From Steromphala cineraria (taxonomy: Eukaryota; Mollusca; Gastropoda; Trochida; Trochidae): 64,000 nt of DNA. Below, piece by piece: positions 25,264-63,532 of the stretch. A model generated the notes under the pieces. It was given only the letters and a program-made list of their open reading frames with translations, made no database searches and had not been told where the DNA came from. The position numbers and the translations under genes were made by a program. The stretch is from NCBI GenBank assembly GCA_916613615.1, contig OU744721.1, positions 51,966,747-52,030,746 of the forward strand. The letters are read 5' to 3'. The stretch's first letter is position 1. Each line of letters begins with the position of its first letter.

Positions 25264-25267
25264 TTAA

Positions 25268-25623
25268 AGGGGCAGTAGCACGTTTTTTGATAATTCTATT
25301 TTCTAAATTTTTCACTGATAATTGTAAGATAATGTTAAGTGTATTATTCTGACAGTGTCAGAAATATCATTACACAAGTCAATCATCCATAGTCAGAGGA
25401 CAGAGTAAGAAGATTCACATAAAATCCATTGGCGGCCATTTTTTGTGAACACCTTTCATTCATTCTGTGTGATAAAAAGGAATCGCATGGCTACACTTTA
25501 CGTTATGTACTTGAATTATTACTGCTCCATTTAGTTTAAATACATTGTCTTTTAATTGGAATCATTAATTTTCATTTTCCTGACATCACCTTATATTCCC
25601 CCTAAAAACGTGCTACTGCCCCT
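25268..25623. mobile_element. TTAA-flanked MITE, copy 1 (356 bp)
   Basis: Terminal inverted repeats start AGGGGCAGTAGCACGTTTTT and end with the reverse complement (AACGTGCTACTGCCCCT). TTAA flanks both sides (25264-25267 and 25624-25627). TTAA target sites are known for piggyBac and Kolobok superfamilies; the family is not settled here. A second copy of the same length lies at 56773-57128. Confidence 0.85.
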
Positions 25624-27699
25624 TTAAATAACATGTATATAATGGTGACACATATATAACATTTAACAATATGGTACATATAGTTAGCTCCGCTATTTAA
25701 AGTGTAGAGCACTCTTAACTGGAAAAGAATACAAATTTGTATTAAAACAAGTACATATACAAGTTTTCAATGTGGCGAAAATTAACATACTTTCTTTGAT
25801 ATTCAATATGAAGATATGAAAATACTATTGTGTATGTACATTCTTTGAAATTCAAGATGAAAATGAGAAAATACTTTTGAAGTTTTATTCATAGATCTTT
25901 CAGTTTTAATGCGTTCAGTGGTATCGACACTTAAATAAAAACTATTTACCATCTCATGCTTATAGTAAAAGTAGGTTTCATATTTGAAAACTCTTCAAAC
26001 TGTCAATACAAAACAAAATATAGAGCTCTTCATTGTTAATATCAATGGGCTTCAACTGTAGAATTTGTTTTTATCAAAAACGAAAAAGTTTATTGCCCTT
26101 GAATGCCATTGATGCAATGGAATAATGAAACATTGCATAAACTAGGGCTTTTAATATACGAATTCTATCAAAATTTACCTAGATATATGTATTATACACG
26201 AAAAAGCATATTCAGAGCTTAACTATACATAATGCTTGCATACAGCTATAACGAATGTTAATAATACGGTAACAGTTGTGTAATACAAAAGTTTACTTTT
26301 AAAAAATTTATTTGAGAAGCGTCAATAAAATCCCCATTTCTGGGTCTTGTAGATATCCAATTCCGATGTCTCTCGATTATATAGTTGGATCCAAAACGTT
26401 TTCCTTGAAAATTGGATTAATGCGATGCAAGTCCAGCGTCACAAAAATATATGCATTTAACCCGAAAATCAACAAATTTTAAAATTTTCAATTTGATTTT
26501 ATTCAAACTCTTCATTTGATATTATTAACCAGTGACCATAATATGAATTTCTTTCGGTAAAGGTTTGCAATAAATGAATTTACCGAGTAAATTAAATGTG
26601 ACAATTTAATACAATTTAAGATTTTTAGTGGATAATGTTATAAACATATAACTTAAAGATATATATAATCTGCTGGAAAATAAAAACACACCTCAAATAT
26701 TTTAAATAAATCTAATTCTTTTAAACAAACTAAACTATAATCCTTCCACTCCAAAGAAATCATTAACAAAACGTTAATTAGCATAATTTCTGACTTGTAG
26801 TGGTATTGTTTAGCTCATCGATTAGGTCTGAGAAATGAAGATTAGGAACAGAGCAAACATAAAACTAACCTCATTTAAAGTTCATAAACAGCATAATAGG
26901 TAAAAATGTGATTCGCTGGGTATTTTCCCGAACCTTATTCAGTGAAACGTATTGACGTGACAGAAATATTAAAAAACTAATTCCATTTTCAGAAAATATA
27001 TGTACAAATATGAGCATAACATAAGGTATATACAACTTTTACAAAGACACTGGAACAATTTTAAAGTAAACTTAAACAAAGTTTCATTTCAAGGTAATCT
27101 CCTTAACTAGACGAGATATGAAAGTAAAAATATCCCCTTTTGCTTGTTTTTAAACCAAATTACAGACAAAATGCATGAACAAATACGTTTTTTTAATATA
27201 GATAGCATCTTAGATTTATCAAATTTATATATTTCATATATTTGTTCCAATTCTAAAGATGATGACAAAAATTAAAATTGAAAAGGCTGTTTTGGAACCC
27301 CTCGTGGATTTGAACAGTCATACATTGATAAGAATCTACAAAAAAAAGTAATTTGCTGGATATTTGCCAGAACCTTATTCAGTGAAACCTATTGACATAA
27401 CAGAAATATTTAAAAAACGGACTACATTCAAGAAAATATGTGTACAAATATGAGCATAACAATGTTTAATTTCAAGGTAACTACTTGAATGTTTATACAC
27501 TAAATGGATATTTCATTAAGACTTATGATCTTAAATTTTGGTTATAAACCGATCATTACGTTTCTTAATTGTGTATGCAGTTACAATTATCATAATTTTT
27601 TTTTCTCCATTGGACTCCTGGCAAAACAAGTTAGGAGACTGGAGGAGCCATTCGGTTAAAGTAACTTGGAGTACATGTTTCATACAAGACTATGATATG

Positions 27700-28465: not shown

Positions 28466-28646
28466 TTAAATTGCTACATTGTCCTCTGGGCAGGTATTTT
28501 CATATATAGGCTGGATGGCTTCATATATGTTATTTTCTGTCTCTGTGATGTAGCTCGGAGTCTCATACACGTGTTCAGGTCGACTGGTGACGTCACTTCT
28601 CTGCACGAGGTCACGTGACACCTTGGTTGACTTCACCCACAGCAAT
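28466..28646 (-). CDS. Receptor A exon 7: cytoplasmic tail
   Basis: Enters after TACCAG with one base that completes Arg272. Begins RLLWVKSTK, like exon RLQWVKKSTK of receptor B. Ends with VYETPSYIT, NIYEAI and PIYENT before CPEDNVAI and stop. YEN fits the pYxN form bound by Grb2-type SH2 domains; YEAI is a half-ITAM-like YxxI. Motif meaning is inferred from known signalling motifs. Confidence 0.85.
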
Positions 28647-31600: not shown

Positions 31601-34600
31601 TAACCTCTGCTCGGGCTACGCCCTCGCGAGGTTATTTTCCATAACCCCTCGGTACCGGGTTATCATTTACCTCTTACACTCCCGCGGAACATTCCAGCAA
31701 TGGTTACAACTAAATTTGTTTATATACAATTAATTCATACACGTTTTAGTGACATTTCGCTGATTTAACATATCTTATTAAGAATACACATTTAAACTTC
31801 TTACAATACCCCTGCTTAGGGTTTAAGAACAAACAAGTTGATTCTTGCATTAAAAAATATTGTATTACAAAGTTTTAATTTAATTTGTTTATATACATTT
31901 ATTGATAAACGTTTCAGTGATATATTTAGCGGGTTTATCATGTCTTGATAAAAATAAACAAAACAAAAAACCGACCAAGGTGGTTATGAGATAACCAACC
32001 TACGCATATGGAGTTTACGGCTTATAAAATTCAACTAAAATACAGGCAATATATTCCCAAGGTGTATAATGGGTACGGGGTGTAAGGATTATTAATATCT
32101 CAATGATAGTGACACCTCACACTCTATCCATGTATATTCTCACACGATCCTTTGATGTAATCAACATCTAATATATAACAAAGGCAGAAATAAAGATGAT
32201 GATGATTGATCATGATAATGATTGATGATATTGACGACGTCGATAACTTTGCATGATGATGATAATGGTGATGGTGAAGACGACTGCGATGATGATAATG
32301 ATGATTGATAATGATAATGATGACGCCGACGATGAAAATGATAATGGTGACGATAATAATGATGACGACGACGAAGTCGATACCGACGACGACCGATACC
32401 GACGACGACGACGATGATGGTGATGATGATGATGATGATGACGAAGATGATGATGACGATGACGATGACGATGACGATGATGATAATAGCTTACCTCCCT
32501 TGTTTGAGCAGACAAATACCGATTCCAGCAACAAGGAGGACAATAGTGAGACCAGTGCCAACAGCGGAAACAACCATTGACAGAGCATGCCAGTTAGTGC
32601 TTGTGTCTGAAAGTATAGCAGTTGATGTTCAACTCATACAATGTCGTATCACCATCAACGTTTGGTCATTACGAAAATGTCGTTTAATATTTTCTATCCG
32701 TCAATTAATATGCACCCCTTACTTTTTGAATGATTAAGCATATAAAATATATACATTATAACGATTGCAAGACGTGTATTATTTGTTTAGATATTGATGT
32801 CCATCTTCGTGTGTACCTTCTGTAAATGGTCTAGGTAAAATCAACCGCATACCATAAAAGGTCAAAGTAATGCAGCTCTTTGAAAGCTCTCTTAAGAGGC
32901 AAAATCCTTCAAGACACATTTAACTGATAAGCCTCAATCGACTGAAGTTGTGTTATTTAACTCTTTTTTCATTCGCATGCACATAGAACACGACAATGTT
33001 GGGGGTACATGTCAATTTTAATTGACGAAATCACATTTACATTTAAAAATACACCTCTAACATATACAATCAAGTAAAATTTAAATGATTTTAAAAGTTT
33101 ATGAGTCCATTGCACTTTTAAAAAGAATTAAAAAGTCTATAACCCGGGTGGGTGGGTGGTCGCTGTCTCGCCTGCCGGTGAGAGACTAACCACAGGGTGG
33201 TCGGGTCTTCACACGTGAGTGCACGTGCAGGGGGTCCTCGGGTATTTCTGCCAGATCCCGAATGTTGCCGAGTTAAACATAAAATAATACATCATTTTTC
33301 ATCTTAACTCTTTTTTCATTCGCATGCACATAGAACACGACAATGTTGGGGGTACATGTCAATTTTAATTGACGAAATCACATTTACATTTAAAAATACA
33401 CCTCCAAACCCCCAACATTGTAGAATTATGAACTTAGACTTGCTGCCACAACCAAAGCACGTGCAAATTTAGAATGGGTTTCTGGTTTTAAGAAGACATA
33501 ACGCTCATACGCGTTGGATTTCCAATCTCCATGGTATTTGATCAACACGCTAGGCATGCCGATAGATAAGGCAAAAGAGCAGCCACCCCGTCTGAAGGAG
33601 TGACCGCTGAACTGGGAAGGAGGATAGCCGCACTGACGTAGGTATTCCGATTCTGAATAGGCATCCTTGTTGGTCGTTTACCATTATCCCTCTTATCCAA
33701 ATAGTAAAAGACTGAGTGAAAGTCTATATTACACCATCGACTTTGCTTTTCTGCCTGCGATTTTCTATGCATGTGGTCGAACATCATGACCGAGGAGACT
33801 GTGACTCTGTAGGTAGACACCAACACACGCTGTATACTCTAAGTACTCTATCAATCCCTGTGAATGAAATTTGCCATCCTTTATAAGTTTAGCCAAAATT
33901 CTAGCATTAGAAGAAATCCACTGAGGCATTGAAATTTCTTCGGGTTTAAGTTTTGAATTTCCTTTCCTTAAAATAAACTGAGACCCCTCGGATTGACTTA
34001 AAGTTTCTTCACTTTCATATTGAACAGTTTTTGGTCTAGTCACAAAGTCTGTTATGAATAATGGCTTCTCACCTGACGTGCGTACACCGTGACAAGATGA
34101 AGCTGGCGCTTGTTCCGTGTGTATCAAATCCGTGAATTGTGTAGAGCCGAGGGCGCCTAGCAGCGAGTTCAGCTCTGTGTTGGCGGCTAGTGAGCGGGTT
34201 GTAGCATGGTCAGCACAGCCGTCGGTAACTGGTTTTGTTAGGTTTTCTTGTTTAACTTCTTCAACGAGTTTTTCTATAAGCTTCCTCTGTGCCATTTTAA
34301 GAGGGATGAAATATCGGTTGAGGTTAAGTCGCCCAATTGTTCTGGTGATTCGAACTCTTCATAATGCAATATATCTATCGTTTTCTCAGTACAACCTTTA
34401 TTTTCAAGCCACTGTGTAAAACTCTCCGCCATGGTTGCGCTGCATGTAGTCAAACGACTCGCTGTCTCGCCGGCCGGTGAGAGACTAACCACAGGGTGGT
34501 CGGGTCTTCACACGTGAGTGCACGTGCAGGGGGTCCTCGGGTATTTCCGCCAGATCCCGAATGTTGCCGAGTTAAACATAAAATAATACATCATTTTTCA

Positions 34601-37600
34601 TCGTTAATCTTCATAATGAATAAATGTACTATGACCATTATGAAGGAAGACAATGAATGAGACAGAATTGCTCTGGGACTAAGATACAATGTCGGTCGAA
34701 GAAACTTGAAATTCGTATATCTTAAAGAGCCACTCCGTCAGTTGTATGTGATCCCATGTGCAAAACTTTATCAATAGTTTCATTCGATCGAAAATTATCG
34801 GCCGTTAGGACAAAGTATCATTTAAAAGCCAATCGATTTGGCATAGTGGCAATAGTAAGGTTTGAATTCGGGATTATGATTGAAATCCGCATTAAAACAC
34901 TGATGCCCCGACGCCAAGGTCACGGTCACATGGTCAAAAGTTATGATTTCATATCAAAAGTCTTATCATGATAGATGTCCATATGGAATATCAATGGTCT
35001 TCCCTCAAACAATCAAAAGTTGTGAGCAAGGTACATAAACACGATTCGTTACTTTAATCAACTCGGGTTGATAAAATCGATATTGGAAGACACTTGGGCG
35101 AGAATCTCTATTTGAAAGATTTCAAATCTGCCCTTTCAGAACATATTGTGAACAACCCCAACCATTCAATCTGCTGAAACAACACTGAAATCCCAATCTA
35201 AATAAATTTAGATCAACAGGTTTTATATTTGGTCATACTGTTGATCTAAGATTTGCCCGTAAGGCGGGTCATCCCGCTGACCTCTAAAATCAGCCGCTCG
35301 GTCAATCAGAAAAGATGCCCTAGCTCGCTGGAAGTTTTTTTTTATCAAACTCGTTTGTACTAATTTATTTCGTTTCCATCAAAATAAATTAAAAAATAGT
35401 GATTTTTTGTCAATCATAAAACTAAAAATGTTTCATACAACCAATATAAAACCAACTGATGTTTTTCTTATCAGTATCAAAACCAGATCTATTTTTCACA
35501 ATGCACACTGTTATTGAGAACAGGCCATAAGCTATCGTATGTTTCTTCTGTTCACACCTTGAATGAGCGACTATGAACTGTTTGTGACGTCGAATTTGAT
35601 TGATCGAATCGCGAATTCGTTATTTGCATACGAAAGGTCACCGGGACGACCTCTCACACTGGTCAAGTATGACAAAATAAAAAAACTGTTGATCTAAATT
35701 TATTTAGATTGCTGAAATCCTGGCCTCCAACATCACTGATAGGCGAAAACGAAAACTAATTGAATCAATCAACCTCAGGAGATTAGCACCCGAGATTAAT
35801 CGTGATCAAAGAGTTTATCTCCATAATTCCTGGTGCATCACCAAGCAATCATAAACTCTATCTCCTGTACGACTCTGCTGTGAAAACATTAATCTGTCCA
35901 TTGTATTTTCTCTTTCATCTCATGTTTTGATTGTACATAGCTAATTGATAACTGTCTTCTGTATTGGATATTCTAAGTCACTTAATTTGCTTTATGTATA
36001 TCTTTGTATATAAATACCATACTGGATATTTCATTATCAGTCGCCTGAAGAAGGGGCAAGAACTGGGCCAGAAACGTCGTAAAAAACAATAAAGAAGTTG
36101 TTATCCATAACATTTGTCTTCTTTAGTCCTTTAAATGTAATCATCTTACGTGTTTGACAGTCATCACCCTCGTATCCAGCTCGACATCCCAGTTTACATC
36201 TCCCGGTCACCTTGTCACACACCTCGTCTGAGTTGAGACATTTGCATGGCTTATCACAATCTTCTCCAAACCAGCCGTCACTGCAAACTGTGACAAGAGT
36301 CATCAGGAGAACATATATCCCACTGGCCCCAAATACTTCAAAATATCAATCTTAAACTTTTGAAAGATTGAAATAGAGGAAAAATAGAGCCATTGGCTCT
36401 GTAGCTCATCAGGCTTCATCTTCAATCTTACTTTAGGGTGTGACTGCTACAGTGGCCCTTATAAGGGTAACAGGATCACCAAAGTTACAATTTATAATCC
36501 TCACTAGTCAAGAAGTCTATACTCAAGATTTCAGCTTTTAATCCTTTAGGTTATGGAGAAAAAGAAGAAAATAGTTTTTACGACGTGGTCCCTGTGTCCC
36601 TTATTAGCGGTCACAGGGACCACCAAAGTTACAATTTATAATCCTCACTAGTCAAGGAGTCTGTACACAAAGTTACAGCTTTCTAGGCCTTATGCTTCTG
36701 GAGAAGAAGATGAAAATAGGTATTTATAGAGCGTGGCCCCTGTGGTCCTTATTAAGGATCACAGGGCCACCAAGGCTACAATTTATAATCCTCACTAGCC
36801 AAGGAGTCTGTACACAAAGTTTCAGCTTTCTAGTCCTTATGCTTCTGGATAAGAAGATGAAATTCCAAGTTTACGGACGGACGGACACCGGACACCATGC
36901 CATGTCGTAAACCCATCGGGCCTTACAGGCCAGATGAGAAAAAACGTCATAAGTTAAATATCAATTGTAACCACCAAATATAAATATCTGAAGAAGTTGA
37001 AAATCCCCAAAAACACATTTTCACATGCTGAATGAACCCAATACAAAGTTTCAGTTAACTAGGTCTAATAGCTTTGTGTAATGCTCAGGAAACGAAGTTC
37101 CAAGTTATGTTTTCATTGAAACTGTCAACAACAAAATTCCGAAGATTAATTGATCTGAAAAATCTCAAAGCCATAACTGTACATGTTGACTGATACACAT
37201 TACAAAATTTCAATAAGTTATGTCATACAGTTTTTTTTAGAAACGAAAGATCTCGAACGAACTCATAATAATGCAACGTGCATATATACATAAATATACA
37301 TAACTATACATATAAAAGAATACAATATCTATAAGTTAACCCTAACCCTACTTTTCAATTCTTCTCTCCAATAAAACTCATTGTACGTGTTTAATATACT
37401 ATTGATAGCTGATGGCGAAGTAAGGATCAGCCGTTCATTTATTATAGATTTGAACAAAATGCAATATTTACTCACCAAACACTTGTACTTCACACAAAGA
37501 GAAGAAATGTCCCAGCACAGTGATTGTCAGATTGTGTCCCGTCAGAGTCTGGCTACAAGTCACATCTTCGATAGTTCCAGGTATTTTATCATCTGGCCAT

Positions 37601-39398
37601 TTCTTGCACCGTTTTCCATCAATCAATATTTCCATTCCCTTTCTTCTCCATACATCTGAATGAAAAGTGAACAGTGTGTGCATTTCTCGATTTCTTTATC
37701 ATAACTTACTTTTCATTACCTTACTTTTCAAAAATACTTTTAGATATGTGTTATACCCTCGACGTTGATAGGGGATGTACAGATAAACCAACAATTTTAC
37801 CCATCCGTCCGTCAGTCCGTCCGAGGAAATTTTTTGTTCCACCAATTGCAGAACAAATATATTTATCTATTTCCTTTTAAAGTTTGCACTTTTAGAATTG
37901 CTGTGCCAAATAAAAAGCTATTTAGTCTTTGAATATTTTACAAGTTACCATGTTTTCCTAAGGGATTTTCGAAGATCGACATTTAATTTTTTTACGAAAA
38001 TAAAAAAATGGTCCCATTCTTTTCAAACGGTGTATTTATATATGTATTTCTTACCTAATTCACAGAGCTTCAGTACTTACAAGAGGTTTCATGAATAGTT
38101 TTGTCAGAATGACAAGTTTCATATTTAAAAAAAAGCAAATAGGACTTTACATTAAACACATGCTTCAGTGTCACCCGACGAAAAATCAGTAGTGAACATC
38201 ACTGTCGATCTAGAGGATTTAGCATTTTTCTTTTATCACATTGGTACATTGATTAGATTTAGAAAAATTACTTATTCTAACAACCGTCTATGCTCCCAAA
38301 TATACTGACCTTTTTTGTGTTCTCCCCGGTTGTAGATCTTCATGTACCTAATCTGGTTGACTCCATTGTCTCTTAGTTGTACACTCCACCAGGAGTTATT
38401 CCTCTCGTCTGTGTGGGTACAACTCCCATGGTTGAAATTAGTGTCTGTTATGCCATCTACAGCGAGGCCAGCTATCGTTGAGTGGACTCTATTAATGTAA
38501 GTCCCTTTTTGACTGGCATTACCATTCAAGGCAACATTTTCTGCAACGAAATATTGCTTATATAGCACATTAAATGTTTTATATATTAGTATTTGATTTC
38601 AGAAGAGAAGAAAATGTGATGGCAATTTGTATAACTTGCTCTTTGTCACCAAATCAACTTCTACAAAGGCAAATAAAGGAATAAAGGTAACGCGACAATT
38701 TTGGTTTCAGTGTTTGTTTCAAAATCCCAAAAAAGCTTTGTCTTCTTAGGGGATAGTTTGCATCAGAGGATTTTGAAACAAAAACTGAAACCAAAATTGT
38801 GGCATCCAACAGTAGCTTCTGAGAAAGGCTCTAGTTATACCTTTCGAGGACAGTTGGTATATTATTAAAGAACATTGAACAGGGACTTCCCATGCATGTG
38901 TGACCCTATTCACTCTACTCACTTTTCTGACAGTAAGGTCCATACCAGCCAGCTTTACACGACCCACATCTATATAACAGATTTCTTGTACATCCCTCCT
39001 CACAGTTGCAGTCACTTGCTGGAAAATATCATACACTGGGAATTGAAGAATATTCAACATTTTGCTTTGTGTTTGTAACTTTATGATTTTACGATGGCCA
39101 TTCTTTTCGTATAGGAACTGAAGATTTTGATAGATTTTTAAGAATTCTTTAAGGACATATTAAAGTTAAGGAAGGATATCAACATGTTGAGTTAGTTTCA
39201 ATAATCATTAATGTTCTTTGCTCTTACATTGCTCGTAAACAGAGGTTAAGATAGAATTTCATCATAATCAGAGAATGGTTGTATCTGTGAAAGCATATTA
39301 TCTATTGTGAACAAAGAGAGGAATCGAAATCCTTGCTTACCGACTGTTGGAGATAGAAATGCTGATATGACACATAACACGAGGAAAGGAACAATCAT
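28466..39398 (-). CDS. Receptor A: signal peptide, EGF, fucolectin-like, EGF, TM, Tyr-rich tail (7 exons, 331 aa)
   Basis: Seven exons join in frame: 39341-39398, 38923-39018, 38310-38540, 37476-37655, 36150-36287, 32495-32606 and 28466-28646. They sum to 996 nt, exactly 331 codons plus stop. Every junction has AG and GT; the first five introns are phase 1 and the last is phase 2, the pattern of shuffled extracellular modules. Residues 1-19 signal peptide; 20-51 EGF-like (6 Cys); 52-188 F5/8 (fucolectin-like) lectin domain; 189-234 laminin/MEGF-type EGF (8 Cys); ~245-268 transmembrane helix; 269-331 cytoplasmic tail with tyrosines at 299, 304, 313 and 320. Likely a surface lectin/scavenger-type receptor related to MEGF10/SREC proteins; ligand unknown. 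The exon chain is direct from sequence and the function is inferred. Extra alternative exons cannot be excluded. Confidence 0.82.
29333..29779 (+). repeat. Dispersed repeat R, copy 1
   Basis: About 450 bp alignable to 63533-64000 in the same orientation. Shared blocks include GGCGAATCAAGTGTGGCCAT, TTGATACCCATCG and GGTGTAAATCCTACAC. No coding frame is kept between copies. It ends next to the foldback element. Confidence 0.8.
29966..30048 (-). repeat. tRNA-derived SINE head (minus strand)
   Basis: On the minus strand, a TAGCTCAACAGGTAAGAGCG A box is followed by GGTTCGAATCC, a perfect B box, with tRNA-like spacing. Acceptor ends do not pair and no CCA or body is clear, so a SINE head or tRNA pseudogene is more likely than a working tRNA. 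Confidence 0.55.
31553..31685. repeat. Inverted repeat (GCGGGAGTGTAAG arms)
   Basis: GCGGGAGTGTAAG at 31553 and CTTACACTCCCGC ending at 31685, with inner arms built on GGGTTATGGAAATAACCTC and its near complement. Sits near the middle of the foldback element. Confidence 0.75.
32170..32488. repeat. (GAT/GAC)n microsatellite beside an exon
   Basis: About 320 bp of mixed GAT, GAC and GATAAT triplets. It begins six bases past the 5' splice site of receptor A exon 6 on the minus strand. Long poly-Asp, poly-Ser and His-rich ORFs across it are artefacts of the triplets. Confidence 0.95.
32495..32606 (-). CDS. Receptor A exon 6: transmembrane segment
   Basis: Acceptor TATACTTTCAG, donor AG|GTAAGC. 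Encodes a hydrophilic lead, about 24 apolar residues (MVVSAVGTGLTIVLLVAGIG and following), then KQGR as stop-transfer. Phase 1 in, phase 2 out, the same phases as the TM exon of receptor B at 61866-61971. Confidence 0.88.
32957..34602 (-). mobile_element. Tyrosine-recombinase element with split direct repeats (Ngaro/DIRS-like, decayed)
   Basis: Two direct-repeat families frame the coding region. Family A (144 bp): 34459-34602 and 33160-33303. Family B (101 bp): 33304-33404 and 32957-33057. Read on the minus strand the order is A1, ORF, B1, A2, B2, the 'split direct repeat' plan known for Ngaro-type YR retrotransposons; B1 and A2 abut, and A2 and B2 are separated by 102 bp. Copies are nearly identical (one or two mismatches seen). 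No reverse transcriptase is present, so the copy is internally deleted. It lies in intron 5 of receptor A. Confidence 0.75.
33426..34432 (-). pseudogene. YR-element ORF remnant: N-terminal region fused to recombinase C-terminus
   Basis: Starts MAESFTQWLENKGC at 34432. A one-base shift near 34300 moves to the frame MAQRKLIEKLVEEV, and a second shift near 33815 leads to VMMFDHMHRKSQAEKQSRW. From ~33680 the frame jumps to the tyrosine recombinase end: FSGHSFRRGG (the HxxR box), HGDWKSNAYERY (the conserved H/W and the nucleophilic Tyr), then a stop at 33426. Most of the recombinase and any RT are missing. It cannot be functional as it stands. Confidence 0.75.
35062..35854 (+). pseudogene. Penelope-like element C-terminus (GIY-YIG endonuclease remnant), interrupted by MITE
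   Basis: The frame before the MITE reads GRHLGENLYLKDFKSALSEH then NNPNHSIC; after removal of the MITE and one TSD copy it continues through EILAS, DRRKRKLIESI and EINRD to SW and a stop at 35854. The order 'LGxRLxxH, H-x-I-x-W, RKxxEAI, lN-x-D' is that of the C-terminal endonuclease of Penelope-like elements. A TGA stands where Trp is expected after HSIC. Upstream RT sequence is not recognisable. Confidence 0.6.
35194..35711. mobile_element. MITE, 518 bp, with 9-bp target duplication
   Basis: Ends are inverted: CAATCTAAATAAATTTAGAT at the left and the complement AAATTTATTTAGATTG at the right, with GATCAACAG continuing the match. CTGAAATCC flanks both sides (35085-35093 corresponds to 35185-35193; right copy 35712-35720). 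Nine-base duplications are typical of Mutator-like elements. A short relative lies at 58322-58404. Confidence 0.88.
36044..36110 (+). mobile_element. Penelope-like 3' end with degenerate hammerhead-like core
   Basis: CCTGAAGAAGGGGCAAGAAC, a GGCC that can pair with GGGGC, GAAACGTCG, then AATAAAGAAGTTG. The order resembles a hammerhead core (CUGANGA, helix II, GAAAC…), but the U after CUGA is A here. Penelope-like elements are known to carry hammerhead motifs. Lies 190 bp after the endonuclease stop codon. Confidence 0.45.
36150..36287 (-). CDS. Receptor A exon 5: EGF-like repeat, 8 Cys
   Basis: Acceptor TTGTCACAG, donor C|GTAAGA, phase 1 at both ends. Encodes VCSDGWFGEDCDKPC, then C-x-C, EVCDKVTGRC, GCRAGYEGDDC: the MEGF/SREC-type EGF with GWFGxxC and GYEGxxC ends. 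Close in form to the receptor B exon at 63204-63338. Confidence 0.9.
36390..36940. repeat. Bivalve-type repeat with ~145-bp tandem subunits and GGACGGACGG tail
   Basis: The block AGTTACAATTTATAATCCTC (last copy AGGCTACA…) recurs near 36482, 36625 and 36773, so about three units of 143-148 bp. It ends with a GGACGGACGGACACCGGACA tail and a CAGATGAG end that mirrors CTCATCAGG at the start. Non-coding. Confidence 0.8.
37476..37655 (-). CDS. Receptor A exon 4: second half of fucolectin-like domain
   Basis: Acceptor TTTTCATTCAG, donor G|GTGAGT, phase 1 both ends. Encodes DVWRRKGMEILIDGKRC, CSQTLTGHNLTITVLGHFFS and ends LCEVQVFG, the closing strand typical of F5/8-type (FTP) domains. Confidence 0.9.
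38310..38540 (-). CDS. Receptor A exon 3: first half of fucolectin-like domain
   Basis: Acceptor ATTTCGTTGCAG, donor G|GTCAGT, phase 1 both ends. Encodes NVALNGNASQKGTY, LAVDGITDTN, GSCTHT, WWSVQLRDN and MKIYNRGEHKK. NVAL…AVDG…GSCTHT…WW…IYNR is the fucolectin/tachylectin-4 signature. The usual R-x-D with paired cysteines after IYNR reads RGEHKK, so classical fucose binding is doubtful. Confidence 0.92.
38923..39018 (-). CDS. Receptor A exon 2: short EGF-like repeat, 6 Cys
   Basis: Acceptor ATATTTTCCAG, donor A|GTGAGT, phase 1 both ends. Encodes SDCNCEEGC, then C-x2-C and KAGWYGPYC. Six cysteines with GWYGPYC at the end identify an EGF-like module. Shorter than exon 5. Confidence 0.85.
39341..39398 (-). 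CDS. Receptor A exon 1 (coding): signal peptide
   Basis: ATG at 39398 starts MIVPFLVLCVISAFLSPTV, a short hydrophobic leader, followed by donor G|GTAAGC. Phase 1 out, matching exon 2. Directly upstream on the minus strand is TTTCTATCTCTTCTTCAG, a strong 3' splice site, so a 5'UTR exon probably lies further upstream and the exon would run from 39405. This exon is the last, diverged copy of the 64-bp array. Confidence 0.85.
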
Positions 39399-42300
39399 CG
39401 TCTACCTGAAGAAGAGATAGAAATGCTGGTATGACACATGAGATGAGGAGACGAACAACCATTGTCTACCTGAAGAAGAGATAGAAATGCTGGTATGACA
39501 CATAAGATGAGGAGAGGAACAATCATCGTCTACCTGAAGAAGAGATAGAATTGCTGGTATGACACATTAGATGAGGAGACATACAATCATCGTCTACCTG
39601 AAGAAGAGATAGAAATGCTGGTATGACACATGAGATGAGGAGACGAACAACCATTGTCTACCTGAAGAAGAGATAGAAATGCTGGTATGAAACATAAAAC
39701 GAGGAGACGAACAATCATCGTCTGCCTGAAGAAGAGATAGAAATGCTGGTATGACACATGAGATGAGGAGACGAACAACCATTGTCTACCTGAAGAAAAG
39801 ATAGAAATGGTGGTATGACACATAAAACGAGGAGACGAACAATCATCGTCTACCTGAAGAAGAGATAGAAATGCTGGTATGACACATGAGATGAGGAGAC
39901 GAACAACCATTGTCTACCTGAAAAAAAGATAGAAATGCTGGTATGACACATAAACCGAGGAGACGAACAATCATTGTCTACCTGAAGAGGAGATAGAAAT
40001 GCTGGTATGACACATAACACGAGGAGACGAACAATCATCGTCTGCCTGAAGAAGAGATAGAAATGCTGGTATGACACATGAGATGAGGAGACGAACAACC
40101 ATTGTCTACCTGAAGAAAAGATAGAAATGGTGGTATGACACATAAAACGAGGAGACGAACAATCATCGTCTACCTGAAGAAGAGATAGAAATGCTGGTAT
40201 GACACATGAGATGAGGAGACGAACAACCATTGTCTACCTGAAGAAAAGATAGAAATGCTGGTATGACACATAAAACGAGGAGACGAACAATCATTGTCTA
40301 CCTGAAGAGGAGATAGAAATGCTGGTATGACACATAACACGAGGAGACGAACAATCATCGTCTACCTGAAGAAGAGATAGAAATGCTGATATGACACATA
40401 ACACGAGGAGACGAACAATCATCGTCTACCTGAAGAAGAGATAGAAATGCTGGTATGACACAGAAGATTGGGAGACGAACAATCATCGTCTACCTGAAGA
40501 AAAGATAGAAATGGTGGTATGACACATAAAACGAGGAGACGAACAATCATCGTCTACCTGAAGAAGATATAGAAATGCTGGTATGACACATGAGATGAGG
40601 AGACGAACAATCATCGTCTACCTGAAGAAAAGATAGAAATGCTGGTATGACACATAAAACTAGGAGACGAACAATCATTGTCTACCTGAAGGAGAGAAAG
40701 AAATGCTGGTATGACACATGAGATGAGGAGACGAACAACCATTTTCTACCTGAAGAAGAGATAGAAATGCTGGTATGATACATAACACGAGGAGACGAAC
40801 AATCATCGTCTACCTGAAGAGGAGATAGAAATGCTAGTATGACACACAAGATGAGGAGAGGAACAATAATTGTCTACCTGAAGAAAAGATAGAAATGCTG
40901 GTATGACACATAAAACGAGGAGACGAACAATCATTGTCTACCTGAAGGAGAGATAGAAATGCTGGTATGACACAGAAGATGGGGAGACGAACAACCATTG
41001 TCTACCTGAAGAAGAGATAGAAATGCTGGTATGACACATGAGATGAGGAGAGGAACAATCATCGTCTACCTGAAGAAGAGATAGAAATGCTGGTATGACA
41101 CATGAGATGAGGAGACGAACAACCATTGTCTACCTGAAGAAGAGATAGAAATGCTGGCATAACACATTAGATGAGGAGACGAACAACCATTGTCTACCTG
41201 AAGAAGAGATAGAAATGCTGGCATAACACATTAGATGAGGAGACGAACAATCATTGTCTACCTGAAGAAGAGATAGAAATGCTGGCATAACACATTAGAT
41301 GAGGAGACGAACAACCATTGTCTACCTGAAGAAGAGATAGAAATGCTGGTATGACACATGAGATGAGGAGACGAACAACCATTTTCTACCTGAAGAAGAG
41401 ATAGAAATGCTGGTATGACACATAACAAGAGGAGACGAACAATCATTGTCTACCTGAAGAGGAGATAGAAATGCTAGTATGACACATGAGATGAGGAGAG
41501 GAACAATCATTGTCTACCTGAAGAAGAGATAGAAATGCTGATATGACACATAAAACGAGGAGACATACAATCATCGTCTACCTGAAGAAGAGATAGAAAT
41601 GCTGATATGACACATGAGATGAGGAGACGAACAACCATTGTCTACCTGAAGAAAATATAGAAATGGTGGTATGACACATAAAACGAGGAGACATACAATC
41701 ATTGTTTACCTGAAGAAGAGATAGAAATGCTGGTATGACACATGAGATGAGGAGACGAACAACCATTGTCTACCTGAAGAAAAGATAGAAATGGTGGTAT
41801 GACACATAAAACGAGGAGACATACAATCATCGTCTACCTGAAGAAGAGATAGAAATGCTGATATGACACATAAAACGAGGAGACGAACAACCATCGTCTA
41901 CCTGAAGAAAAGATAGAAATGGTGGTATGACACATGAGATGAGGAGACGAACAACCATCGTCTACCTGAAGAAAAGATAGAAATGCTGGTATGACACACA
42001 AAACGAGGAGACGAACAACCATCGTCTACCTGAAGAAGAGATAGAAATGCTGATATGACACATAAAACGAGGAGACGAACAACCATCGTCTACCTGAAGA
42101 AAAGATAGAAATGCTGGTATGACACACAAAACGAGGAGACAAACAATCATCGTCTACCTGAAGAGGAGATAGAAATGCTGGTATGACACATGAGATGAGG
42201 AAACGAACAACCATTGTCTACCTGAAGAAGAGATAGAAATGCTGGTATGACACATAAAATGAGGAGACGAACAACCATTGTCTACCTGAAGAGGAGATAG

Positions 42301-45300
42301 AAATGCTGGTATGACACATAAAACGAGGAGAGGAAAAATCATTGTCTACCTGAAGAAGAGATAGAAATGCTGGTATGACACATGAGATGAGGAGACGAAC
42401 AACCATCGTCTGCCTGAAGAAGAGATAGAAATGCTGGTATGACATACAAAATGAGGAGACGAACAACCATTGTCTACCTGAAGAAGAAATAGAAATGCTG
42501 ATATGACACATAACACGAGGAGACGAACAATCATCGTCTACCTGAAGAAGAGATAGAAATGCTGGTATGACACATGAGATGAGGAGACGAACAACCATTG
42601 TCTACCTGAAGAAGAGATAGAAATGCTGATATGACACATAAAACGAGGAGACATACAATCATCGTCTACCTGAAGAAGAGATAGAATTGCTGGTATGACA
42701 CATGAGATGAGGAGACGAACAACCATTGTCTACCTGAAGAAAAGATAGAAATGGTGGTATGACACATGAGATGAGGAGACGAACAATCATCGTCTACCTG
42801 AAGAAGAGATAGAATTGCTGGTATGACACATGAGATGAGGAGACGAACAACCATTTTCTACCTGAAGAAGAGATAGAAATGCTGGTATGACACATTAGAT
42901 GAGGAGACGAACAATCATCGTCTACCTGAAGAAAAGATAGAAATGGTGGTATGACACATGAGATGAGGAGACGAACAACCATTGTCTACCTGAAGAGGAG
43001 ATCGAAATGCTGGTATGACACACAAGATGAGGAGACGAACAATCATTGTCTACCGAAGAAGAGATAGAAATGCTGGTATGACACACAAGATGAGGAGAGG
43101 AACAATCATTGTCTAACCGAAGAAGAGATAGAAATGCTGGTATGACACATGAGATGAGGAGACGAACAACCATCGTCTACCTGAAGAAGAGATAGAAATG
43201 CTGGTATGACACATAAGATGAGGAGACGAACAATCATCGTCTACCTGAAGAAGAGATAGAAATGCTGGTATGACACATGAGATGAGGAGACATACAATCA
43301 TCGTCTACCTGAAGAAGAGATAGAAATGCTGGTATGACACATAAGATGAGGAGACGAACAATCATCGTCTACCTGAAGAAGAGATAGAAATGCTGGTATG
43401 ACACATGAGATGAGGAGACGAACAATCATCGTCTACCTGAAGAAGAGATAGAAATGCTGGTATGACACATAAGATGAGGAGACGAACAATCATCGTCTAC
43501 CTGAAGAAGAGATAGAAATGCTGGTATGACACATAAGATGAGGAGACGAACAATCATCGTCTACCTGAAGAAGAGATAGAAATGCTGGTATGACACATGA
43601 GATGAGGAGACGAACAATCATCGTCTACCTGAAGAAGAGATAGAAATGCTGGTATGACACATGAGATGAGGAGACGAACAACCATCGTCTACCTGAAGAA
43701 GAGATAGAAATGCTGGTATGACACATAAGATGAGGAGACGAACAATCATCGTCTACCTGAAGAAGAGATAGAAATGGTGGTATGACACATGAGATGAGGA
43801 GACAAACAATCATCGTCTACCTGAAGAAGAGATAGAATTGCTGGTATGACACATGAGATGAGGAGACGAACAACCATTTTCTACCTGAAGAAGAGATAGA
43901 AATGCTGGTATGACACATTAGATGAGGAGACGAACAATCATCGTCTACCTGAAGAAAAGATAGAAATGGTGGTATGACACATGAGATTAGGAGACGAACA
44001 ACCATTGTCTACCTGAAGAGGAGATCGAAATGCTGGTATGACACACAAGATGAGGAGACGAACAATCATTGTCTACCGAAGAAGAGATAGAAATGCTGGT
44101 ATGACACACAAGATGAGGAGAGGAACAATCATTGTCTAACCGAAGAAGAGATAGAAATGCTGGTATGACACATGAGATGAGGAGACGAACAACCATCGTC
44201 TACCTGAAGAAGAGATAGAAATGCTGGTATGACACATAAGATGAGGAGACGAACAATCATCGTCTACCTGAAGAAGAGATAGAAATGCTGGTATGACACA
44301 TGAGATGAGGAGACGAACAACCATTGTCTACCTGAAGAGGAGATCGAAATGCTGGTATGACACACAAGATGAGGAGACGAACAATCATTGTCTACCGAAG
44401 AAGAGATAGAAATGCTGGTATGACACACAAGATGAGGAGAGGAACAATCATTGTCTAACCGAAGAAGAGATAGAAATGCTGGTATGACACATGAGATGAG
44501 GAGACGAACAACCATCGTCTACCTGAAGAAGAGATAGAAATGCTGGTATGACACATAAGATGAGGAGACGAACAATCATCGTCTGCCTGAAGAAGAGATA
44601 GAAATGCTGGTATGACACATGAGATGAGGAGACGAACAACCATCGTCTACCTGAAGAAGAGATAGAAATGCTGGTATGACACAGAAGATGGGGAGACGAA
44701 CAATCATCGTCTACCTGAAGAAAAGATAGAAATGCTAGTATGACACACAAGATGATGAGAGGAACAATCATTGTCTACCTGAAGAAGAGATAGAAATGTT
44801 GGTATGACACATAAGATGAGGTGACGAACAATCATTGTCTACCTGAAGAAGAGAAAGAAATGCTGGTATGACACATGAGATGAGGAGACGAACAATCATC
44901 GTCTACCTGAAGAAGAGATAGAAATGCTAGTATGACACACAAGATGATGAGAGGAACAATCATTGTCTACCCGAAGAAGAGATAGAAATGCTGGTATGAC
45001 ACATGAGATGAGGAGACGAACAACCATTGTCTACCTGAAGAAGAGATAGAAATGCTGGTATGACACATAAAACGAGGAGACGAACAACCATTTTCTACCT
45101 GAAGAAGAGATAGAAATGCTGGTTTGACACATGAGATGAGGAGACGAACAACCATTTTCTACCTGAAGAAGAGATAGAAATGCTGGTATGACACATAAAA
45201 CGAGGAGACGAACAATCATTGTCTATCTGAAGAAGAGATAGAAATGCTGGTATGACACATAAAACGAGGAGACGAACAACCATTGTCTACCTGAAGAAAA

Positions 45301-46360
45301 GATATAAATGCTGGTATGACACATGAGATGAGGAGACGAACAACCATTTTCTACCTGAAGAAGAGATAGAAATGCTGGTATGACACATGAGATGAGGGGA
45401 CGAACAATCATCGTCTACCTGAAGAAAAGATATAAATGCTGGTGTGACACATGAGATGAGGAGACGAACAACCATTTTCTACCTGAAGAAGAGATAGAAA
45501 TGCTGGTATGACACATAACACGAGGGGACGAACAATCATCGTCTACCTGAAGAGGAGATAGAAATGCTGGTATGACACATGAGATGAGGAGACGAACAAT
45601 CATCGTCTACCTGAAGAAAAGATAGAAATGCTAGTATGACACACAAGATGATGAGAGGAACAATCATTGTCTACCTGAAGAAGAGATAGAAATGCTGGTA
45701 TGACACATAAGATGAGGAGACGAACAATCATCGTCTACCTGAAGAAGAGATAGAAATGCTAGTATGACACATGAGATGAGGAGACGAACAATCATCGTCT
45801 ACCTGAAGAAAAGATAGAAATGCTAGTATGACACACAAGATGATGAGAGGAACAATCATTGTCTACCTGAAGAAGAGATAGAAATGCTGGTATGACACAT
45901 AAGATGAGGAGACGAACAATCATCGTCTACCTGAAGAAGAGATAGAAATGCTAGTATGACACATGAGATGAGGAGACGAACAATCATCGTCTACCTGAAG
46001 AAAAGATAGAAATGCTAGTATGACACACAAGATGATGAGAGGAACAATCATTGTCTACCTGAAGAAGAGATTGAAATGCTGGTATGACACATAAGATGAG
46101 GAGACGAACAATCATCGTCTACCTGAAGAAGAGATAGAAATGCTAGTATGACACACAAGATGATGAGAGGTACAATCATTGTCTACCTGAAGAAGAGATT
46201 GAAATGCTGGTATGACACATAAGATGAGGAGACGAACAATCATCGTCTACCTGAAGAAGAGATAGAAATGCTGGTATGACACATAAGATGAGGAGACGAA
46301 CAATCATTTTCTACCCGAAGAAGAGATAGAAATGCTGATATAACACATAAGATGAGGAGG
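39350..46360 (-). repeat. 64-bp minisatellite (~109 copies) built from the receptor A signal-peptide exon
   Basis: Unit period 64 bp; occasional 63-bp units (e.g. near 43055, 44080, 44390). On the minus strand every unit reads: TTTCTATCTCTTCTTCAG, GTAGAC(G/A), ATG, a ~19-codon leader such as MVVRLLISCVIPAFLSLLQ, and back into the splice-site tract. The ATG is kept in almost all units (lost near 40866 and in the last unit at ~46360). As 64 is not a multiple of 3, a start in one unit runs through two frames and stops in the third, which gives the recurring 62-codon ORFs. These ORFs are not proteins. Whether any unit is transcribed or spliced cannot be seen from DNA. Confidence 0.96.
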
Positions 46361-46362
46361 CG

Positions 46363-46378
46363 TTGTAAACCTGGAGAA
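46363..46378 (-). promoter_or_regulatory. Candidate ancestral 3' splice site at the far edge of the array
   Basis: On the minus strand TGTCCTTTTCTCCAG precedes GTTTACAACG and then the first recognisable unit (CCTCCTCATCTTATGTG). It resembles the in-unit splice site in position and may be the remnant of the original exon's acceptor. Confidence 0.3.
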
Positions 46379-49844: not shown

Positions 49845-51010
49845 CCCTAAATATGAAATGGTTAATGTACTTACTCTGTATGTTGTACTTGACTTGCTTA
49901 CGTAATGTATATCTTGACAGTTATCATAAGCTTATTACTTGTAAATGATCTACCATATATAGAAACCATTTTATACAAACAAAAATACAACTGCATGAGG
50001 AAGGAAGTAGTCTTGCTTTGAAACGGTTGACTGGAGAAGCTGCAAGTATTTTAGTTTTGATGATCATTTATTTCCCTATACAATCAAAGGACTGTATGTG
50101 CACTATTCCACCATGAGCTGTTGATCATACTGATCATAAAACTTCCTCTCGGTTTTTTTCCACAGAAATAGGCTTAAGAAGTTTCGAGTTTTCGACAATA
50201 ATTACTGAGAAAGCTTGGCTTGTTAATTGGTTGTACTTGTTTTTCATATTTGTAAAAACTTAGAATTTTCGTTCGGGTATCTTTCTCAGAAAAGGGCAAT
50301 ATACGTTTCGAGCTATCTACAATAAGCTTTGGGGAAACCTGGCTTGGTTTTACTTTTAGAAATATAATAATATCAAGTCAACGTACATTGTTATGAAACC
50401 ATTTTTTATTATCAATTTGATTATTTAACAACATAACCGTGTGAAACGGTACTCAAATCAAGAGAGACATTTTAGTTAGTTTATGTTTACTGTTGGTGAT
50501 ACCAGTAGCTCATAATCGTCTTCAGTTGGACCAACATGTACATGTGTGTAAGTAAAGACGTGGGAATATCTTATGCTGTTATTGCAGTAAAAAAAGCTCA
50601 ACATTGCTCAAGTTCTTATATCATTCGCATACCGTAACATGTTTATGCAAACACTTCCAATAGAAATTCTGGTGAATATGGGAGGAAGCTAGCTGTTTTT
50701 GTTTGACACAATTTTTTTGTACAGGAAAAACATCGGATTTAATGAAAACTATAGTTCAAACTTTCACGGAAATGAAACATGCATGTTGTGGTGATCCGCT
50801 GGAAATCGATATTTCTCCTACCACTCAATCAGAGATATATGCTCCAAAATCAAATGCAGGAAAATAAAATTACATGACAGTGACATGTTATTCTGTTACA
50901 CAATCCAATGATAAATCAATTTAAGGATCAAACAACTAGTCAGGATCAGACACAACGAGTTAATTCAGCTGACCCATATAAGGAAATAACGATGCCGTCA
51001 ATCGTTATAA

Positions 51011-54861: not shown

Positions 54862-56772
54862 GATTTAGCATCATCTCAGGAATGATATCTTCTTGAGAAA
54901 CCTATATTGGGTGTCAGTTTTAACTTATAGCCCATGGAAGTTTCAAATATGAAGATTGGTGATTAAGAAACCGATGATGTTGCCATATTGAACAAATAAT
55001 CTAGATTTCACACTTTACATTGTACACTATACATACCGACATTAACCAATATGTACATTCATCATTCGGGTATTATCAGTTCGCCAAAGTAAGATACGCA
55101 AATCACATATATAACCATTCACTATGTACATGTCCTCATTTTTTACATACTGTTTAACTAAAGTATCGCATCATAATAATTTATTTGTGTGTGCCATATC
55201 AAGATTAGTATTACAATGTTGCAAAAGATTTGATGCCAAACTGATTTGACATATGTCTTCGACAGTATGCATTCAATGTTAGTGTAATGAATTAATTTTG
55301 TTTATTACAGAATTTATTTTTTTAAATGTCTTCTTTATTACATTGTTTACCAAACATTATCAGCTATTTTGTTCTTTAGTGCTACAATAGCTCACTACTC
55401 AACGCGATTACCTTTTGTGTTCCTAGTGCCAGTTTCGAACATCGTGCAGCCTTTAAATACGAACACCTTTAATTCGAGTTAGAGAAAAGGAAATTCGTGT
55501 TGCTTGAGCAAACTTGATTATTTCGTTTGAGAATCTCCTTTACTGGATTTGTAGCAACTTTGTGACTTCTTTCCCCAATAAGTGATGTCCCCAATATTTC
55601 AGTAAGAAAAACATGTAACGGTGCCTTTAAACGTGATGGGTATCTTGTTTAGAGCGACTGCATGACTTGTCAATATACATGTACTGTTTAAAATCTGTTA
55701 TTTTGGGTATCGTTGTACAAATGATGTCCTATCATGCAAGATTTTACGTGATAATTGTTCTTTCTGATACAAATATTCCGATGAACAAAAGTATTGACAA
55801 TACCGGGATACGAACATGTTCAGTCAAGCAGTTACCTATCCATATTGGTCTGGCCTCAGCAAACTCACAAGTTCTGTTAAGTGCAGATAAACATAGTTAT
55901 TAGCAGACAAATATCATCGCTGAGTTTAAACAACTGAACGGCATCGATCATGAAAACAAGGTAGGTAGGTAGGTGGATTAAAGGGCGACGTTGGGCCACA
56001 AATGACCTATTTGGGCCCTGCATTAATCATGAAAACAAATAGTACACAGAAGTTACCTGCCCCTAATCTCTGACACCAAATGCGTTTGTCTTATGTTTGG
56101 GTAGTAAAATGTGACTAACAGCGGCAACTCCATGATTGAATAACTTCGCATCCCGGTTGCGCAATATGTCTGAACTTTTATTTTTCGTAACAATGTTGAT
56201 TTGATCAGACTGTAAGGCTCCCATGTTGTCAACATAATTTAAACATTAACAAGGTTATAAGAAGAAATATTTTTCATTTTATTCAAGGTTTATATTGAGA
56301 CATTTTTATAGAAATAAACACAACTTTATGAAAATTCTCTGAGGTTTTGTAATAAAGAGGATACTTTGGCCTCATTACAATACAAGGTCAGCTTGTATCG
56401 AAGATATCTTCAAATCCAACTGCTTTATTTTTTTTAGGACTCGATAACTTGTATCCAGTGTATATCACCACGTTAAAACTTTTCACTAACTTTCATTCTA
56501 GTGAATGTAAAGAACAGTATATATTCAGAAAAAAATTAATAACAGAAACTCAAGTAACCTATTTCGGCTACACCTGAAACATTCATGCCACGCCAACAGT
56601 TCAGGAAATGACGGGTAAATTGGTTAAAGTGAACTTGATATATAGAACAAGCTATCAGCTTAAACAACTGAGTGAAACATAAAGCTCACTGGCTGAAGTT
56701 CCATGTTTATTAAAAAACGCTGGCTGGAATATTGCCCAAGTTGCGTTAAACTCAAGCCCACTCACACTTTAA
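54862..56772. other. Non-coding stretch
   Basis: No gene supported. The ORFs at 55667-55903 and 56053-56235 have no recognisable domain. A molluscan repeat tail (GGAATATTGCCCAAG) lies at 56725-56767. Confidence 0.5.
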
Positions 56773-57128
56773 AGGGGAAGTAGCACGTTTTTTGAAAATT
56801 GTATATTTTAAAATTTTCACTGATAATTGTACATTCATGCTAAACGTATCATTTTAATATTTTAATTCCTTTACACCAACCAATGATTATTAGTCAGAAA
56901 ACAAATGACAAAGATTCAAATAGAGTCCATTGGCAGCCATTTTTGTGTAAACACTTTATATTTCTTTTTGTGTAAGAAAAAGGAATCGCAAGGCTGAACT
57001 TTACATTATATATATTTGATTTATTACTACTTCATTTAATTCCAATACATTGTCCTTCAATTGAAACCATTTATTTTCACTTTCCTAACATCACCATATA
57101 TCCCCTCTTTAAACGTGCTACTGTCCCT
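56773..57128. mobile_element. TTAA-flanked MITE, copy 2 (356 bp)
   Basis: Same ends as copy 1 (AGGGGAAGTAGCACGTTTTT … AACGTGCTACTGTCCCT) and TTAA on each side (56769-56772, 57129-57132). Same length as copy 1 despite many substitutions. Confidence 0.85.
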
Positions 57129-58321
57129 TTAAAATGTTGCTTAATTAAGAATATAATTTTGTGTGCAAAAGGCTCGTAAAGGAACACAAATCAACTATCC
57201 ACATACCATAAATACCCGAATAATCGCTCTGCGACAAAGTTTAAACACCTTTTAGTACGGTAATAATTTAAGTGATCATTTTAAATTGTGACGTTTTACA
57301 AAAAATATTTCATATAATGGATTCAATGGTCATTCAAACATTTCCTACATTTTCAGTAAATGCAAAATAATTGTAAACAAAATTGTTAAAATTTGCAAAT
57401 TAAATGCAGTGATTATTCAAGGTAGGCGATTAATGAGTTAAACGGGCACCTAGACATATGTATAAACCGCAAAAAATAGAAAACATCATAATTAGATTGT
57501 TAAGATGTGTAAGTCTACTATAGCGAGTATTCAAGGCAGGCGATTAATCATAGTTTTACGGTAACTACCCTCACGTTCCACTGAAATGTTTTGACCAAAC
57601 TTCCACTTATCTGAAGTCAAACAAAACACTCAGGAAGGGGTTAAAAAGTTATATCTCTTGCATGAGATTGGTCTTCCGTAATAAAACGTAATTATTATAG
57701 AATGAAAATAAAGTTTAATCAAATGTTAAATTTCATTGATTGATAAAAATCGTTCAATATTGCAAAACAAATGAAGTTTTTCTACATATATTACATTACA
57801 ACAGTATTGATATCAATACATTGATCGTATGTCATAAGTTTTAAAACATATCCTCTGACCACAGTAAGAAACTTTTTTTAACATTGCAAAGATTGTCAAA
57901 ACCTGTTAATACATGTTTGTAAAGTACATAATATGAATAATGCAATAAAGAACAAATGCAACAAAGAAGTGGTATCAATTTTTGAATAAGGTACATAATA
58001 ATGAACATACTAAAAAATTTAGTTAGAAGCAAATTCATATAAGAAAAAAAAGCATATTTATGTTAAACAGTGCATTTATCCAGTTCTCATGTTTAAAAAA
58101 GGTTAAAAGTAGCAAGTAAGTGGTTAAATGTTTGGCAGGGTAGATAACAGTTTGATTATAATAAACGGTGCTCCGGGGAATAAGATTATAAATATATAGA
58201 TTATACGTGGTTTTCTCTCCGCACCCCCTTTAGGCGCATGTTCTAACGAGAGCTCATATACCAACCCGCGAAATCTCCAACAAAGCTTCCGGTATCAGTT
58301 GCTAGGGGCTTACATCGCCCC
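57129..58321. other. Non-coding AT-rich stretch
   Basis: A short imperfect duplication (ATTCAAGG(T/C)AGGCGATTAAT) occurs at 57415-57435 and 57529-57548. Nothing else is recognisable. Confidence 0.5.
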
Positions 58322-63338: not shown

Positions 63339-63532
63339 CTGGAAATACATTGCATAATACAAAAATATACGGAAACCATGTTACACAAATGTATTCATAG
63401 CCAATATAATTGATAAGATTTTTGGATGTTATCTAGTCCATACGAAAATGGGCAATGTTTATTCCCGTGGATATGTATTGTTCCTGTAGCCTAAGGCCTT
63501 AAAGATGCTGTATCATACTTGCAGTTTTTTAA

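Follow-up and report, generated by a model that had tools for sequence, protein, structure and literature searches.

Minisatellite-like duplications of intron-exon boundaries have been described in amphioxus and termed mirages (PMC3087553, PMC3902484). In the accessible parts of these reports, the hosts are Adh3, TnC and the globins BflGb6/9, with PGBD5 compared to them; the clusters vary in length, and reverse transcription PCR (RT-PCR) suggested no interference with splicing. The mirage of globin BflGb6 has 6 and 3 units in two haplotypes, of 150-160 bp each, on the 3'-splice side of an exon. Here we describe an array in the gastropod Steromphala cineraria that is best read as a neutral minisatellite of the same type, extreme in form. 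It lies in a 64,000-nucleotide stretch of contig OU744721.1 (assembly GCA_916613615.1, positions 51,966,747 to 52,030,746, forward strand), hereafter the window, where a 64-bp minisatellite of 110 units (array A) occupies the 5' end of a minus-strand gene for an F5/8C-EGF receptor (receptor A). A second array of 25 units (array B) is found in a paralogue, receptor B. The preliminary description of the window knew of no minisatellite of this kind; the mirages, as the accessible text presents them, are such a kind.

What the snail array shares with the mirages, as far as the accessible accounts go, are tandem units spanning an exon-intron boundary and the many AG/GT signals that these units carry. 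The mirage reports themselves add undisturbed regular splicing, length instability and edge units that stand outside homogenisation. Compared with the BflGb6 mirage, the snail arrays, which belong to a gastropod and lie in two paralogues, consist of 110 and 25 units of 64 bp; unlike the mirages described in the accessible text, they span almost the whole leader exon, including the start codon. Resemblance to other systems, also judged from accessible parts of the sources, is more limited. The repeated AG/GT flanking most snail units resembles the proto-splice sites whose duplication is held to produce new introns (Rogers 1989, cited in PMC3087553), but there is no evidence that any unit is now in use as an intron. 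The ratchet points of recursive splicing have an AG/GT layout (PMC8605326) that is likewise juxtaposed in the long predicted first intron of the snail gene, whereas the snail array is tandem, has a weak donor and displays no visible selection. Mutually exclusive exons of the Dscam type are also tandem copies of one exon, but the snail units lack an intact exon, a GTRAGN donor and a sign of coding constraint. No molluscan mirage was found in the open-licence literature searched, outside which most subscription papers fall and in which mirages were met only in lancelets, nor was a system closer than the mirages named there.

Wraparound alignment resolved the minus-strand minisatellite at 39341-46378 into 110 units over 7029 bp, and Tandem Repeats Finder (TRF) reported a period of 64, 109.6 copies and 91% matches over 39350-46359. 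In gene orientation, the consensus unit consists of an acceptor (TTTCTATCTCTTCTTCAG), a spacer (GTAGAC, then A or G), an ATG and a hydrophobic leader that runs to TTTCTATCTC, followed by the next acceptor. One unit therefore comprises the acceptor and the greater part of the leader exon; only the terminal, gene-proximal copy also has the final bases of that exon (CAACAGTCG) and its donor. All but two of the 110 units, namely the truncated distal unit and one with ATT, retain the ATG (108), and the acceptor AG at unit positions 7-8 is kept in 101, as is the GT at positions 9-10. A stop interrupts the leader in 6/110 units, and one identical 1-bp deletion is common to three. An ATG, a stop-free leader and a hydrophobic stretch of 10 residues occur together in 102 units, and 73 distinct units were counted. 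The distal unit has an acceptor, CCTTTTCTCCAG/G (the slash marking the junction), that differs from the internal ones and is continuous with the single-copy flank. The terminal unit encodes MIVPFLVLCVISAFLSPTV, with its ATG at 39398 and its acceptor AG ending at 39406, and runs on into CAACAGTCG and the donor G/GTAAGC at 39340. Joined to 39018-38923, 38540-38310 and 37655-37476, this leader exon forms one open frame.

These results confirm that the array at 39341-46378 is real, tandem and derived from a first coding exon. The preliminary description had placed about 109 copies at 39341..46360 and had seen in them a tandem family of first-coding-exon copies, each with a 3' splice site, an ATG and a leader, the gene-proximal copy being the first coding exon of receptor A. 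The anatomy bears this out, and the predicted join to the EGF exon stays in frame; only the far end moves slightly, to 46378, and the content of a unit is refined as above. Its remark that nearly all units keep the ATG holds for array A and not for array B, where 21 of 25 do.

A whole-genome DNA search with one unit, in which match counts are lower bounds, listed at least 134 matches, all of them at two places: array A and C2:53128373-53129908. A dispersed repeat, which the preliminary description had named as a finding that would count against it, was rejected on these grounds, since among the matches listed the unit occurs elsewhere only in paralogue B. There, 1.1 Mb from array A, the 25 units of array B hold the equivalent position, and the terminal one encodes MVVPLLILCVIPTFLSPTV before a homologous EGF exon. 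Homology between A and B extends in pieces from 51154 to 29235 of the window.

A protein search listed 15 places on C2 with an exon of the first EGF type (E 1.3e-6 or better). The leader was sought at 11 of these (C2 52.09, 56.73, 56.78 and 17.81 Mb being left out) and located at 10, two with arrays (A and B) and eight with a single exon. Paralogues A2 and D have one leader exon each, that of A2 being the D-resembling candidate of two. Three paralogues carry single leaders of the form MN(R/C)(I/F)LLVCIIA(T/A)YLLEEV, and at 54.14, 54.16 and 54.19 Mb single exons align to the A/B leader exon, with CAG/GT at the matching place. For paralogue C, no credible leader was found in the 10 kb upstream; a candidate there was rejected as a short match within a long coding-like stretch that is not leader-like. 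Since eight of the ten located leaders are single and only A and B are arrayed, the ancestral state was probably one leader exon, with the array arising later in the lineage of A and B.

Selection on the units was assessed from the distinct substitutions in the 134 full units of both arrays, leaving out the truncated distal unit. There were 46 nonsynonymous and 14 synonymous variants, compared to 40.8 and 17.7 expected without selection, together with 1 stop, 3 start and 7 non-coding variants (1.4, 3.3 and 7.8 expected). Array A alone gave 35 nonsynonymous and 7 synonymous variants (28.5 and 12.7 expected), array B alone 26 and 12 (25.5 and 11.7), and counting in the truncated unit raised the totals to 48 and 15 (45.0 and 19.2). 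Coding constraint would lower the nonsynonymous number, which is above expectation. Codon positions 1, 2 and 3 had 21, 19 and 14 variants over 16, 15 and 15 sites, which is no codon-position signal. Invariant sites numbered 16 (21.1 expected at random), and variant density was about one per site across splice site, spacer, ATG and leader. By conservation among 62 triplet windows, the ATG ranked 7th in array A and 41st in array B; the AG came 40th and 47th of 63, and AGGT 34th and 32nd of 61. Selection on ATG or AG is not supported by these ranks. As judged from sequence variation, internal units show no sign of coding or splice-site selection.

The region upstream of array A was compared with that of paralogue B. 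Identity is 93% where aligned in the block 49848-50326, 86% at 50420-50665 and 78% over the 757-bp 5' flank, with 83% in intron 2 and 63% in the poorly aligned part of intron 1. The conserved block contains TATAAAA (49975) and a conserved GTAAGT (49874), from which we infer that it holds a non-coding exon 1 and that the array lies within an intron of about 10 kb in the 5' untranslated region. Units differed on average by 8.8% inside array A and by 10.3% inside array B; between the arrays the figure was 10.1%, which is exceeded by the 22% difference between the 5' flanks (757 bp). The arrays have 24 variants in common, against a mean of 13.8 and a maximum of 22 over 5000 null draws. On the unit tree the A/B labels change 15 times (mean 23.4 and minimum 17 in 500 shuffles); the tree is partly sorted by array, yet interspersed. 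Both arrays have a homogenised interior and a diverged edge: in B no unit departs further from the consensus than the distal one, which has 11 differences versus a mean of 4.2 over the 25, and the distal A unit is truncated, while the gene-side edge is not more diverged. The pattern fits unequal exchange within arrays combined with either inter-locus exchange or persistent old diversity, the latter two being inseparable here. The 110 and 25 units of the two paralogues are only suggestive of length instability.

The explanation that we hold to be probable is that array A is an exon-boundary minisatellite of the mirage type, a neutral passenger of a 5' untranslated region intron that is spliced out. 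In an F5/8C-EGF receptor gene, one leader exon would have been tandemly duplicated together with its own 3' splice site, the pyrimidine-rich end of the exon (TTTCTATCTC) becoming fused to the acceptor's pyrimidine tract (...TTCTTCAG). The resulting 64-bp unit would then have expanded and contracted through unequal exchange. The array would lie in the intron between the predicted non-coding exon 1 (donor at 49874) and the first coding exon, and the spliceosome would mostly join exon 1 to the terminal unit, the sole copy that has a correctly phased GTRAGN donor, removing the other 109 units as intron. Evolution of the internal units would be neutral, and they may trade sequence with the 25 units of array B. 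We favour this explanation because the unit occurs at two loci and at both is the leader exon of paralogues; because eight of ten located leaders are single copy, three of them recognisably homologous to the A/B exon; because there is no sign of codon or splice-site constraint and one GTRAGN donor, the terminal one; because divergence between the arrays is no larger than within them, despite the 22% flank difference; and because amphioxus mirages, in the accessible parts of their reports, seem from RT-PCR to be spliced regularly.

Several observations weigh against this explanation. In three of the eight single-copy exons (54.14, 54.16 and 54.19 Mb) the A/B position lacks an ATG, and the candidate at 54.16 Mb has none in that frame of the matched stretch; in the other two an ATG lies deeper in the exon, in phase. 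Each of the array's seven GTATGT sites has an open upstream ATG with which it is in phase 1. Wrong splice choice seems plausible in view of the AG in 101/110 units, the consensus one of which stands behind a pyrimidine-rich tract. One insertion or deletion event was seen besides the truncated unit, versus about 6 predicted for 71 distinct variants from the flank ratio (401 substitutions to 32 insertions or deletions, summed); this scarcity could reflect some constraint or length-biased exchange. Finally, the distinct-variant counts are minimum counts of low power.

A live alternative to the neutral passenger, if an unlikely one, is that around 100 acceptors compete as decoys, that upstream open reading frames (uORFs) in retained units lower receptor output and that copy number tunes expression. 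The retention of the acceptor AG would suit this proposal, as would the predicted products. If splicing moved to the nearest upstream acceptor, the exon would measure 129 nt and contain a uORF of 42 codons, overlapping the main ATG and terminating within the EGF exon; all five upstream acceptors tested add upstream ATGs, and the next four bring more uORFs. Read without splicing, the open frames are 43 codons long for 60 of the 108 unit ATGs and 62 codons long for 29, and the frame from the terminal ATG continued to the end of the stretch read. After an internal leader, CAG/GTAGAC is in phase 0 for its own ATG and the EGF exon needs phase 1. Since upstream acceptors add overlapping uORFs and internal donors are mostly out of phase, mis-splicing would more likely silence the gene than diversify its product. 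However, AG and AGGT are not excessively conserved in A or B, and the ATG is so only in A; the amphioxus mirages, in the accessible text, are reported not to disturb splicing. A compound version, in which some 100 AG/GT sites serve both as decoys for the true acceptor and, in part, as ratchet points, overlapping uORFs come from retained units, and length changes between individuals, or between cells as is reported of the amphioxus Adh mirage, set the amount of receptor, seems to us distinctly less likely when taken as a whole.

Recursive splicing is improbable. The CAG/GT would serve as juxtaposed acceptor and donor for stepwise removal of 64n nt, so that any acceptor leads to one mRNA. Most junctions do have the AG/GT layout of ratchet points (AGGT is the majority form, in 88% of full A units), and on paper, removing 64n nt between AG/GT sites restores the terminal junction. 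A strong 5' splice site has the consensus GTRAGT, however, and the sites right after the AG, 91 GTAGAC and 9 GTAGAA, are weak donors; the middling ranks of AGGT conservation also speak against a ladder.

The preliminary description had further allowed for a pool of alternative leaders. Such a pool of signal peptides, selected via splicing or gene conversion, we rate marginally below recursive splicing. The 102 units with ATG, uninterrupted leader and hydrophobic stretch would provide material, and the seven GTATGT sites make seven alternative leaders formally possible. Apart from these sites, no donor in phase with exon 2 accompanies the units; the only GTRAGN donor is terminal, and the GTATGT sites are preceded by ATT or TTT, a poor donor context. 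Six leaders contain a stop, and neither purifying nor codon-position selection was detected, so a selected leader library is not supported by the codon and donor tests. An assembly artefact is very improbable: long arrays are difficult to assemble, but 73 of 110 units are distinct, a separate 25-unit array exists at paralogue B, and HiFi reads are part of the data set, according to the accessible part of PMC11074690.

Features of the array and of receptor A are collected in Table 1. Receptor A has a short tail with several tyrosines. Its Pfam F5_F8_type_C_2 match (E 2.8e-5, 25.1 bits) is below the cut-off of 27.8, and the best 8 of 11 protein matches are Haliotis proteins (draper-like, MEGF-like and uncharacterised) with 36-53% identity.

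Table 1. Positions of the 64-bp array and of the receptor A gene in the window.
Feature	Position	Strand	Basis or remark
64-bp array, 110 units	39341..46378	-	TRF and wraparound alignment
Distal-most truncated unit	46323..46378	-	ATG lost; acceptor CCTTTTCTCCAG/G
Predicted promoter (TATAAAA 49975-49969) and non-coding exon 1	49875..49975	-	donor GTAAGT at 49874; A/B conservation
Terminal unit, leader exon of receptor A	39341..39405	-	in frame with EGF exon
EGF-like exon	38923..39018	-	in-frame join
F5/8C (galactose-binding) exon 1	38310..38540	-	Pfam search and in-frame join
F5/8C exon 2 (3'-side exon of domain)	37476..37655	-	in-frame join
Second EGF-like exon	36151..36288	-	ends approximate
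Transmembrane exon	32494..32607	-	ends approximate
Cytoplasmic-tail exon and stop (...YETPSY...NIYEAIQPIYENTCPEDNVAI, stop)	28466..28645	-	start approximate

Paralogue B contains a second boundary array (L010 295-911, C2 53.134 Mb; period 90, 6.9 copies), which repeats the end of the second F5/8C exon with its donor. GGTGAGT is kept in 7/7 copies and the acceptor-like AGs are variable. Gene A has one copy at this place, and the TRF results for the window include no such array. Among 108 TRF rows (window and loci L009-L031), no other array coincided with a family exon match in a query that excluded the leader exon. The few insertions and deletions of the 64-bp array contrast with the 89- and 91-bp spacings among the 7 units of this one. 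The tail of paralogue B (L012:1040-1207) carries a stop in the position of a Q in A, 15 residues short of the end of A (...NDIYEVI-stop-SIYENTCPEDN).

Minus-strand transmembrane-like and EGF-like matches at 61865-63339 and in L026/L027 probably belong to the 3' portion of A2, the neighbouring paralogue, whose single-copy leader has its ATG at C2:52044178. In the second F5/8C exon (37476-37655, compared with loci L021, L026 and L010), A and A2 are 92% identical versus 73% for A and B, and the second-EGF matches in L010 (B) and L021 (C) are identical. Such mosaic exon identities between paralogues suggest exon-wise gene conversion. Elsewhere in the window, a satellite with a unit of about 353 bp and TAGGGTTAGGG-like motifs has 58.4 copies over 5-20765, with further TRF rows to 22937, and 25260-25628 and 56764-57138 are diverged copies of a dispersed repeat with several matches also around paralogue B. 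ARAGORN, run with the bacterial code, found no tRNAs in the window.

New here are the molluscan host, the roughly 110 copies, the inclusion of nearly the whole start exon, the second array in a paralogue and the separate 7-copy donor array. The array is much longer than the mirages described in the accessible reports and has a start codon in nearly every unit. It also comes with an evolutionary context, in that eight paralogues have one leader exon, two have it amplified, and a second boundary array occurs in the gene family. The locus is a natural setting in which to test how the spliceosome picks out the one true 3' splice site from about 100 that are nearly identical, and whether such arrays cost or tune expression.

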